Assembly (NCBI GenBank): GCA_030685015.1
Contig: JAUXWS010000046.1
Coordinates: 1 to 64,000 of the forward strand
Length of the DNA stretch: 64,000 nt
Source of the DNA: a bacterium
GTDB taxonomy: Bacteria > CAIWAD01
Direction: 5' to 3'
Positions 4,329-8,650 of the stretch are shown here, one piece after another. The position numbers were made by a program, and so were the translations under genes. The notes under the pieces were generated by a model. That model saw only the letters and a list, made by a program, of their open reading frames with translations, searched no databases and was not told where the DNA came from. Position 1 is the first letter of the stretch; every line of letters starts with the position of its first letter.

Positions 4329-4358
4329 GTATCATAATCGTCGTATCGTGATACTCAA
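4329..4358 (-). promoter_or_regulatory. hsdR promoter overlapping an inverted-repeat operator candidate
   Basis: On the minus strand TTGAGT (4358-4353) and TATGAT (4336-4331) are separated by 16 nt, a good sigma-70 promoter 62 nt upstream of the hsdR ATG. An imperfect 26-bp inverted repeat, GTATCATAAT against ATCGTGATAC (8 of 10 positions paired, 4329-4354), fills the spacer and both hexamer edges, so a protein bound there would block transcription. The regulator is unknown; the HTH of HsdM or the C-terminal helix-turn-helix of Fic are candidates. Confidence 0.5.
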
Positions 4359-4384
4359 ACGAGCTTGATGCGCATTGGTGAGAC

Positions 4385-5506
4385 TCAAAACACGATCCGT
4401 CCTTCAGCTATGTTCAGCAAAGATGGAAAAGCGAAGATCGCCGACCGCCGACCCGAGCTCTCCAGAATCGTGGTCAGGATCCCGGCCTCCCGCAGCAGGC
4501 CGAGGAAGCGGTGCGCCGTCGGTTTCGGAATGGACGAGCCATTGATGAAATGACTGCTGGCGAAGATCGGCCGCTCGAAAAGGAAGTTCACGGCCCGGTT
4601 GGCGTGCTGGGAATGCGTCAGGTCGGTGATCTCCCGCAGCATGCGCTTGTGCAGGTCGAGGATCGCCTGCGCCCGGGACTGGTTGTCGGAGGCCTGCGCG
4701 ATCAGCCCCTCGAGGAAGAAGGCGCACCACGGGGTCCAGGCGCCGTCCCGCGAGACGGCGCGCATCGCCTCGACGTACTGCTCCCGCCGCGCGTCCAGAT
4801 AGCCGCTCATGTAGAAGTCCGGCCCGCGGAGGATGCCGCGCTCGAAGAGGAAGAGCGGGATGAGCATCCGGCCCAGCCGCCCGTTGCCGTCCTTGAAGGG
4901 ATGCAGCGCCTCGAACTCCACGTGGAGGACGGCGAGCTGGACGAGGGGATCGCGCTCCTCGCGGCCCTGGAGATAGCGGGTCCAGGCGTCCAGGCCAGCC
5001 AGCAGGTGCTCCTGTGGCGCCGTCACGAAACTGGCCTCCTCGATCCGGCAGCCCTTGGGGCCGATCCAGTTCTGCTCCGTGCGGAAGGCGCCCGGGCTCT
5101 TGTCGCGGCCCCGCACGCCGTCCAGCAGCAGGGCGTGCGCCTCGCGCAGCAGGTGCGGCGAGAGCGGACGATCCGCCAGGGACTTCGTGGCGAAGACGAG
5201 GGCGGCGCGGTAGTTGCGGATCTCCTCGGCCTCGTCGCGCTTGGGCTGGGAGAGCCCGGCGCCGTCGCCGGCCTCGATCTGCAGCACCTCGCCCATGGTG
5301 ACGGTGGTGCCCTCGATCCGCGAGGAGAGCACGGCCTCCTGGGTCGTCAGGGGCGCCAGCAGGACGGCGGGATCGGGGATCGCCGCCAGCAGGCCGTCGT
5401 AGCGCGCCAGCGCGGCGCGGGCGTCGCCGATGAGGGGCACCAGCCGGGCCCAATCGATCTGGCCGGGCGGGAAGCCGCCCAGGTGGTAGCGGACCGCCTC
5501 GCTCAT
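4385..5506 (-). CDS. fic: Fic/DOC family AMPylase with N-terminal inhibitory motif and C-terminal winged helix
   Basis: A 373-aa Fic protein, predicted to transfer AMP to a target hydroxyl. The Fic motif HPFKDGNGRLGR is complete, including catalytic His and the NGR anion-binding residues (about residues 203-214). The N-terminal region holds SSRIEG, matching the (S/T)xxxE(G/N) inhibitory helix of class II Fic proteins, so activity should be self-restrained. The C-terminal 80 residues (INGSSIPKPTAHRFLGLLRE) look like a winged HTH. The ATG at 5506 overlaps the HsdS stop as ATGA, so translation is coupled to hsdS. Fic genes inside type I RM loci are known elsewhere; their role there is unresolved. 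No separate antitoxin gene is needed or seen. Confidence 0.93.
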   Translation of the reverse strand: MSEAVRYHLGGFPPGQIDWARLVPLIGDARAALARYDGLLAAIPDPAVLLAPLTTQEAVLSSRIEGTTVTMGEVLQIEAGDGAGLSQPKRDEAEEIRNYRAALVFATKSLADRPLSPHLLREAHALLLDGVRGRDKSPGAFRTEQNWIGPKGCRIEEASFVTAPQEHLLAGLDAWTRYLQGREERDPLVQLAVLHVEFEALHPFKDGNGRLGRMLIPLFLFERGILRGPDFYMSGYLDARREQYVEAMRAVSRDGAWTPWCAFFLEGLIAQASDNQSRAQAILDLHKRMLREITDLTHSQHANRAVNFLFERPIFASSHFINGSSIPKPTAHRFLGLLREAGILTTILESSGRRSAIFAFPSLLNIAEGRIVF

Positions 5507-6792: not shown

Positions 6793-8615
6793 AGCCGCCC
6801 CAGCATCTTGGCAAGCGAGGCGTCAATGTCGTGCGCTTGCTTGTCAAGCCCCAACAGCTCGGTCACGATGTCCTTGATCGGGCGCTCGCTGACTGCGTCA
6901 GCCTGTGCAATCCATCGGCTCGGGCTCAGGTTGTAGTCCGCCTCCTCGGCCTGTTGGCGCGTGATGACGGCGATCTCTCCTTCCACCGGCTCGCCCTTGA
7001 GGAAGGCCGCCGCCAGCGGGCGGATCTCCGCCGCGGGGATGTAGTTCTTCGGCCGGCCCTTCAGGACACGGCGCGAGGCGTTGAGGAGCACGATGCGCTC
7101 CCGGCGCGCGGCCGGCTTGCGTTTGGAGAGCACCACGATCACGCCGGCGGCGCTGGTGTTGTAGAAGAGGTTGTCCGGGAGCAGGATGACGCCGTCGATG
7201 TAGTCGTGGTCCACGAACCACTTGCGGATGCCGCGCTCCTTGTCCTCGTTCTTGCTGCCGGAGCCGCGCGTCACCGCGCCCGTGTCCAGCACCACCGCCG
7301 CCCGGCCCCGCTCGTTCAGGCAGGCCAGGGTGTGCTGCAGCCAGGCCCAGTCGCCTTTGCCCGTGGTGACGCCGCCCTGTGCGCGGAAGCGGTCGAAGGG
7401 GTCGTCGGCGAAGATGTCCGGGTTGAAGGGCTGGTTCCACATGGGATTGGCGACGACGACGTCGTAGCTGCGGATGCGGCTGTCGGCGGTTTTGAACTTG
7501 GGGTTGATCATCGTGTCGCCGCGCGCCATCTGCACGTCCATGTCGTGGATGATGGCGTTCATTTGCGCCACGGCGTAGCTCTCGGCCGTCAGCTCCTGTC
7601 CGAAGAGCTTGAGCGGCACCTTGCTGGAGGGGTCCAGCTCGCGCGCCACCAGTTGGAGCTTCACCAGCAGCCCCGCCGAGCCGCAGGCGTAGTCGTGGCA
7701 TTCCTCGCCGGGCTTCGGCCGCAGGATGTGGGCCATGAGGAAGCCCACCTCCGTCGGCGTGAAATACTCGCCGGCGCTTTGGCCCGAGCCCTCCGCGAAC
7801 TTCCGCAGGAGGTACTCGTAGGCGCGGCCGAGGAAGTCCGGCTGCACGTCGGCCAGGCCCAGGCGGTAGCGCGCGTCGGAGAAGGTCTCGACCACCGCCA
7901 TCAGCTTGGCCGGGTTGATGTCGCGCTCGCCGTTGCGCTCCGCCGCGAAATCCACCACGTCGATGACGCCCGCCAGCGTGGGGTTGTGGCGCACCACGGC
8001 GCGCACGGCCCGGGTCAGGTGCTCGCCGATGTCCCGGGGCCGCGTGCCGCGGCCCTGTTCGTCATCGGGCCAGTCGTAGTGCGCGCGGCCGCTGAGGACC
8101 GCCCAGCGCGCCTCGGGCGGCAGGTAGAAGCGGAGCAGCCCGTGATCGCCCTCCGCGATCTCCAGCGCCTGCCGCCGGTCGCCGTACTCCTCGGCGAGAC
8201 GGTCCAGCTCGTCGTCGAAGACGTCCGACAGGCGCTTGAGGAAGAGCAGGGGCAGGAGGAAGTCCTTGAACTTGGCGGCATCCTTCTCGCCGCGGATGGA
8301 GCAGGCGGCGTCCCAGAGCATCTGCTCCATGGGCTTGGTGGTGGGCGCGGCGGCGCGCGCCCGGGTCCGGCGCCGCGTCACCTGCGCCGCCGCCTGGGTG
8401 GAGTCCGTCTCATGATCCTCCAGGTCGATCCCGGCCTCGGCGGCAAGGGCGGCAATGGCGTCGCGCGCCGCTTTTTGCGGTGCGTTCAATCCGCCTTCCC
8501 AGCGGTTGATGGTGGCGAAGGAGACGCCCAGATAGGCGGCGAGCTGCTCCTGCGTGAAGTCGAGCTTGGCGCGGATGGCGCGTAGCGTGGCGGCGATGGT
8601 CGTTGATTTTGTCAT
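6789..8615 (-). CDS. hsdM: Type I modification subunit (HsdM) fused to N-terminal XRE helix-turn-helix
   Basis: Adenine-N6 methyltransferase subunit (608 aa) with an extra N-terminal domain. Residues about 5-60 read as a Cro/C1-type HTH ([20 protein letters not shown] then RWEGG), then a basic linker, then the normal HsdM body: N-terminal helical bundle, [14 protein letters not shown] motif [12 protein letters not shown] (about residue 308) and motif [13 protein letters not shown] (about 391), where the usual NPP(Y/F) is NPMW. Ordinary HsdM proteins are about 490-530 residues; the surplus equals the HTH plus linker. ATG at 8615 is preferred over 8633: it lies 6 nt after a TATATT box, and neither has a Shine-Dalgarno. 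It is the first gene of the operon. Confidence 0.93.
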
Positions 8616-8621
8616 GTCTGC

Positions 8622-8650
8622 AATATATGACATATAACAAACGAACTAAG
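8622..8650 (-). promoter_or_regulatory. hsdM promoter with palindrome TATATG-A-CATATA
   Basis: On the minus strand TTAGTT (8649-8644) and TATATT (8627-8622) are 16 nt apart, and TATATT ends 6 nt before the chosen hsdM ATG, so the transcript may be leaderless. A perfect 6+1+6 palindrome (TATATG, A, CATATA; 8624-8636) overlaps the -10 box. Its position suits an operator for autoregulation by the HTH domain fused to HsdM. Its half-site differs from the inverted repeat at the hsdR promoter. Confidence 0.45.

Follow-up and report, generated by a model that had tools for sequence, protein, structure and literature searches.

Putative autoregulation of a type I restriction-modification operon by an HsdM subunit with a built-in XRE helix-turn-helix domain

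The window analysed here is the whole 64,000-nucleotide stretch of DNA, and the part of it considered below holds a type I restriction-modification (RM) operon on the minus strand, with the following genes and features.

1031 to 1531, minus strand: open reading frame for a YgjP-like (M48) metallopeptidase (Pfam YgjP-like, profile positions 97-199 of 207)
1317 to 4268, minus strand: hsdR, 983 aa (Pfam HSDR_N, ResIII, SWI2_SNF2)
4295 to 4388, minus strand: inverted-repeat array 3' of fic, six 11-bp units (structural scan)
4385 to 5506, minus strand: fic, 373 aa, SoFic-type AMP transferase, between hsdS and hsdR
5503 to 6792, minus strand: hsdS, 429 aa (Pfam Methylase_S, two stretches)
6789 to 8615, minus strand: hsdM, 608 aa (Pfam N-terminal XRE HTH, HsdM_N, N6_Mtase)
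8427 to 8588, minus strand: HTH domain of HsdM, residues 10-63, recognition helix at about S32-FATINRW-E40
8615, minus strand: ATG start of hsdM, placed by alignment of relatives
8616 to 8641, minus strand: conserved, predicted hsdM operator and promoter, TTTGTTATATGTCATATATTGCAGAC (PWM from 68 non-redundant relatives)
8624 to 8636, no strand: perfect 13-bp palindrome TATATGACATATA, with the middle half-site of the operator at its centre

Judged by their domains, HsdM, HsdS and HsdR are ordinary type I subunits: HsdM is accompanied by an HsdS with two target-recognition domains and by an HsdR that combines a nuclease N-terminal domain with an SF2 motor and scores above the cut-off of NCBIfam TIGR00348. 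The hsdM/hsdS and hsdS/fic junctions are both 4-bp ATGA overlaps, as the original prediction had described them. The start of hsdR is placed by homology at the ATG at 4268, its relatives aligning from residue 1, and the fic cargo leaves 116 bp before it. The fic product matches the PADLOC SoFic model PDLC03963 (E 1e-103), the Pfam families Fic_N and Fic and the SoFic structures 3eqx and 3zcn in the PDB, and its translation contains both the SoFic active site HPFxDGNGR, as HPFKDGNGRLGR, and the inhibitory motif SxxxEG, as SSRIEG. A YgjP/M48 gene is the conserved final gene of these operons and follows hsdR in most relatives; in the window this reading frame overlaps the end of hsdR and covers only the C-terminal half of the profile, and it may be truncated or mis-started. 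An AT-rich stretch at 930-1050 with an inverted repeat (AACACAATGGAATTGTT) lies at the left edge of the RM island and is a possible island boundary. A search of positions 900-9600 against Rfam gave no match.

The extra XRE-type HTH at the N-terminus of HsdM, which the original prediction had pointed out, is borne out by Pfam (HTH_3, E 2e-8, and also HTH_31) and by its conservation. Searching genome contigs with HsdM identified 80 loci with 68-82% identity, and the HTH is kept in nearly all of these closest relatives, nearly all of which align from HTH residue 1-17. The relatives include the cultured Chromobacterium aquaticum (L012) and Vulcaniibacterium thermophilum (L005). HTH-HsdM fusions are found in about 80 relatives from more than ten phyla, comprising Pseudomonadota, Actinomycetota, Acidobacteriota, Nitrospirota, Latescibacterota, Gemmatimonadota, Chloroflexota, Binatota, Planctomycetota, Deinococcota, Hydrogenedentota, Myxococcota and others, and hsdS, hsdR and the M48 gene lie downstream of hsdM in nearly all of them where the contig extends. 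A tblastn search of plasmids with HsdM gave no match. Residues N37, R38, W39 and E40 of the recognition helix are invariant among relatives, and mean conservation is 80% in the HTH against 51% in the variable linker that comes after it (residues 64-92). The predicted structure of residues 1-110 has a mean pLDDT of 72, with 81-90 in the HTH part, and the solved structures nearest to the predicted HTH fold by Foldseek are C.BclI, CapH, C.Kpn2I, C.AhdI and C.Esp1396I (probability 1.00, with modest E-values of 0.01-0.07). A sequence search of the PDB with the HTH gave one weak match.

When the upstream regions of 68 relatives are aligned on the hsdM ATG, conservation is absent before -37, covers a -35 box (-36 to -31) and is strong from -26 to +6. 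Across phyla, pairwise identity is 0.50 in the interval -26 to -1 against 0.256, the level of chance, in the interval -100 to -41. Part of this conservation (the -10, the -35 and the start codon) is what is expected of any promoter. The pattern of the relatives reads TGC-WATATW-GCA-WATATW-GCA-AAC-ATG-ACA, with half-sites at -24, -15, -6 and +4 relative to the ATG, a 9-bp period and dyad symmetry, and the -10 hexamer (-12 to -7) sits between two half-sites. In a set of 70 loci, TG is found at -24 in 34, CA at -15 in 45 and TG in 10, CA at -6 in 61 and CA at +4 in 60, so that the -15 half-site is inverted in a minority of relatives. In the window the same element reads TGT-TATATG-TCA-TATATT-GCA-GAC-ATG-ACA, its half-sites being TGT (8639-8637), TCA (8630-8628), GCA (8621-8619) and, within the gene, ACA (8612-8610), all 9 bp apart. 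The window promoter has the -10 TATATT (8627-8622) and a weak -35, TTAGTT (8649-8644), and was not flagged by a promoter scan; most relatives have a good TTGACA at -35. Since the distance from the -10 to the ATG leaves no leader, the hsdM mRNA is probably leaderless.

A score of at least 15 bits is reached within 170 bp upstream of hsdM in 65 of 67 loci (median 27.8), the operator being poor in the other two, and in about ten loci indels bring down the score at the exact register. The window scores 28.6 bits, and outside the operator no other site above 17 bits occurs in it. The element also appears to go with the HTH. L084, an HTH-bearing relative at 61% identity, keeps it (21 bits), whereas it is absent at the starts of HTH-less HsdM relatives, a few scores of 15-17 bits there being AT-rich stretches. 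These controls came from two phylum-wide searches and are about 50% identical and mostly from GC-rich genomes; the 21 nearest of 30 (46-50% identity) score below 15 bits except for one AT-rich case at 15.3. The conserved HTH, together with a predicted operator that its HTH-less relatives lack, supports the proposal that HsdM is its own transcriptional regulator. A second HTH-HsdM clade at about 52% identity (L085, L114-L117) has a different HTH and is without the operator. Two of its five members have another palindrome near the -10, and L114 carries TATATCA-GA-TGATATA over its -10, which suggests, as far as sequence can tell, a changed operator going with a changed HTH.

The original prediction had also pointed to a perfect palindrome in the hsdM promoter. 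The palindrome exists, at 8624-8636, and it is made up of the middle half-site of the operator and its two AT-rich flanks; it is not itself the conserved element. Taken alone, the inverted repeat does not rise above chance (P 0.076-0.23, dinucleotide shuffles), so that by sequence it is remarkable as part of the array of half-sites and not by itself. What is conserved among relatives is likewise the array with its 9-bp spacing, not the exact palindrome. An ATG at 8633 was considered as the start of hsdM and rejected as too early; the alignment of relatives puts the start at 8615, and the palindrome therefore lies upstream of the gene.

The other half of the original prediction placed a separate promoter before hsdR. 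The sequence TTGAGT-16-TATGAT does occur there, at 4358-4331, and its spacer is spanned by an inverted repeat. However, one such promoter-like match was found where 0.8 would be expected by chance, and the inverted repeat alone is not above dinucleotide shuffles (P 0.16-0.18). Neither this palindrome nor the one at hsdM was retained as a stand-alone signal. The operator scores about 0 bits at hsdR in the window against 28.6 at hsdM, and upstream of hsdR it reaches at least 15 bits in 0 of 67 loci (median -2.4); an HsdM operator at hsdR was accordingly rejected, there being no site in the window or in any of the 67 relatives. hsdR follows hsdS directly, without an insert, in 37 of 70 loci, and in 60 of 70 it overlaps the preceding gene, typically by 4 bp, or starts within 50 bp of it, from which we infer that hsdM, hsdS and hsdR share the hsdM promoter.

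The remaining 33 of the 70 loci carry extra genes in the hsdS-hsdR gap (loci L004-L076), among them genes for Argonaute, Aga-SIR2, DSR2, SoFic, AAA/AbiEii-type ATPases, Bro-N PDC-S13 and schlafen-like proteins, several of which are established defence proteins. For defence cargo this gap is a hotspot, in agreement with the paper on RptR, where it was called a potential recombination hotspot (PMC12255303). Tandem repeats of 11-12 bp (AGGGGCGCGAT-like) occur just before hsdR in loci with other cargo (L019 at about 16000-16230, L024 at about 15270-15350, and L038 upstream of hsdR).

The supposed hsdR promoter and its inverted repeat (4331-4358) are included, together with the fic stop codon, in the array at 4295-4388. 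Its units alternate in orientation, in the layout fwd0-2-rev1-6-fwd1-12-rev2-6-fwd2-2-rev3. In a blind structural scan of all loci the 3' ends of fic ranked top, with up to 8.3 matches per 11, and the window array reached 6.2 per 11 against a background of 2.97 (sd 0.47). Similar arrays stand behind fic at L021:14173, L037:5637 and L040:13810, and behind fic relatives from other contexts (18 examined, L134-L151). In 19 of 21 loci the array is in register, L136 and L139 being degenerate or shifted. The spacings 2-6-12-6-2 are fixed, and the unit sequence agrees within a locus and differs between loci; either the first unit contains the fic stop codon or the codon precedes it by 8-14 bp, and two acidobacterial loci with degenerate fic remnants keep the array. 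As read from these comparisons, the site at hsdM belongs to an operator that is widely conserved and the one at hsdR to a fic-linked array. The original prediction was to fall if its palindromes were unconserved among relatives; the hsdM site withstands this in the form of the 9-bp-spaced array, and the hsdR site does not. The 11-6-11 spacing within the fic array resembles that of Xer/dif cores; a Xer/attC-like recombination site was considered as a reading of the array and is not put forward here.

Because a built-in HTH goes together with a matching conserved operator on its own promoter, HsdM very probably controls the operon, and we consider it likely that this control is negative autoregulation of the whole type I operon from the predicted site. 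HTH-HsdM would then be a dual-function methyltransferase subunit, the XRE domain of which would bind half-sites of the consensus TGC-WATATW-GCA-WATATW-GCA with their 9-bp period. The occupied half-sites would lie on either side of the -10 box and extend to the start codon on the presumed leaderless mRNA. Such binding should shut out RNA polymerase and so repress, rather than activate, the single promoter that would drive hsdM-hsdS-(cargo)-hsdR-M48. The negative feedback might set the dose of the RM complex and of the inserted defence cargo, and repression could lift at low levels of HsdM, for instance upon arrival in a new cell. It is conceivable, if improbable, that invading unmethylated DNA, or assembly with HsdS and HsdR, titrates HTH-HsdM off its operator and that infection thereby induces the operon and its cargo, since the repressor belongs to an enzyme that binds DNA with HsdS. 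If so, no separate sensor would be needed, the type I enzyme counting its own free M subunit.

Other explanations of these sites have to be weighed against negative autoregulation. The upstream sequence might be no more than a strong promoter and start signal of the leaderless kind, with the HTH serving DNA target search, HsdS docking or foreign-DNA sensing, and it is true that the -35, the -10, the ATG and codon 2 all fall within the conservation. This seems unlikely when the peaks of conservation lie outside the -10 and -35 with regular spacing and symmetry, and when the operator tracks the presence of the HTH. Equally, the nearest folds are those of C proteins, which both activate and repress (PMC12707154), and the several half-sites and the weak -35 of the window leave room for an HTH-HsdM that activates at low and represses at high concentration, or that only activates. 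The half-sites, however, overlap and follow the -10 and are not upstream of the -35, which is itself good in most relatives, and activation of this kind is thus quite unlikely.

For hsdR, the original prediction had HsdM bind its own and a separate hsdR promoter and delay HsdR until methylation is complete. The promoter-like sequence and inverted repeat 60-90 bp before hsdR would suit such a delay, as would the later start of hsdR from its own promoter in EcoKI (PMC12707154). This scheme is nevertheless very improbable: the operator is lacking before hsdR in the window and in its relatives, hsdR is co-transcribed and usually translationally coupled in most of them, and the inverted repeat belongs to the 3' element of fic. 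It is possible, though on the whole doubtful, that the array is instead an operator for the C-terminal winged-helix domain of Fic and that in these RM loci Fic, not HsdM, tunes hsdR; this concerns the hsdR half only and is compatible with autoregulation by HsdM. In relatives the array does keep a constant distance from the stop codon of fic, several genomes have SoFic-type fic genes with it placed between the M/S genes and the R gene of a type I or type III system, and SoFic homologues have a C-terminal domain resembling DNA-binding ones, 3eqx being named a transcriptional regulator. Against this, the array is also seen behind fic genes that stand alone, their neighbours being unrelated or opposed, and it is absent in four distant plasmid relatives. 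We keep Fic as a rival only, since the coupling between its recognition helix and the array unit loses significance once relatedness is allowed for (partial Mantel P 0.095).

The regulation of type I systems is usually placed at the post-translational level. If HTH-HsdM does autoregulate, self-regulation would be widespread within a single branch of type I enzymes, across more than ten phyla, and would help to explain how the operon moves between phyla with changing cargo (SoFic, Argonaute-SIR2, DSR2, AAA ATPases), all of it governed by a single autoregulated promoter. The predicted operator is short and open to direct test. A search of openly accessible full texts gave no description of an HTH-HsdM fusion that has an operator. 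In a recent broad review, MTase-HTH regulators are treated for type II systems, and the type I cases are a separate C-like gene of Mycoplasma gallisepticum and the pair of promoters of EcoKI (PMC12707154).

Among known systems, the type II HTH-fused methyltransferases M.SsoII, M.Ecl18kI and M.EcoRII repress their own promoter (PMC12707154, PMC3978073). HsdM resembles them in its fused N-terminal HTH and in the operator on its own promoter, here predicted from sequence. It differs in being a type I subunit that needs HsdS and in the arrangement of its operon, which is without a divergent overlapping R promoter and has one promoter for M, S and R; an opposite effect on a separate restriction-gene promoter is not indicated, hsdR lying in the same operon in most relatives. 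C proteins are likewise small XRE-type HTH regulators of RM genes, and are the closest folds by Foldseek, but they are stand-alone genes with different operators and activator/repressor logic, whereas here the HTH is fused to HsdM and is not a stand-alone XRE controller gene upstream of R. The SoFic anti-phage proteins share the Fic_N-Fic-C-terminal domain architecture with the product of fic, but here the gene lies within a type I operon and has behind it a six-unit inverted-repeat array, which PMC12249575 does not mention. The closest parallel in layout is with the islands controlled by RptR, a stand-alone type I transcriptional repressor reported only in 2025. RptR represses an hsdM-hsdS-darTG2-hsdR-M48 island by way of three direct repeats of 9 bp that cover the -10 box, and infection raises hsdM there by more than 15-fold (PMC12255303). 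Both systems have the same order of genes, down to the M48 gene, with cargo in the hsdS-hsdR gap and repeats at 9-bp spacing over the -10 box. RptR, however, is a protein of its own, with 79 aa, four helices and TAGCTA sites, of which TTTGTTATATGTCATATATTGCAGAC contains none, while the putative regulator here is the XRE domain of HsdM itself, with TGC..GCA sites.
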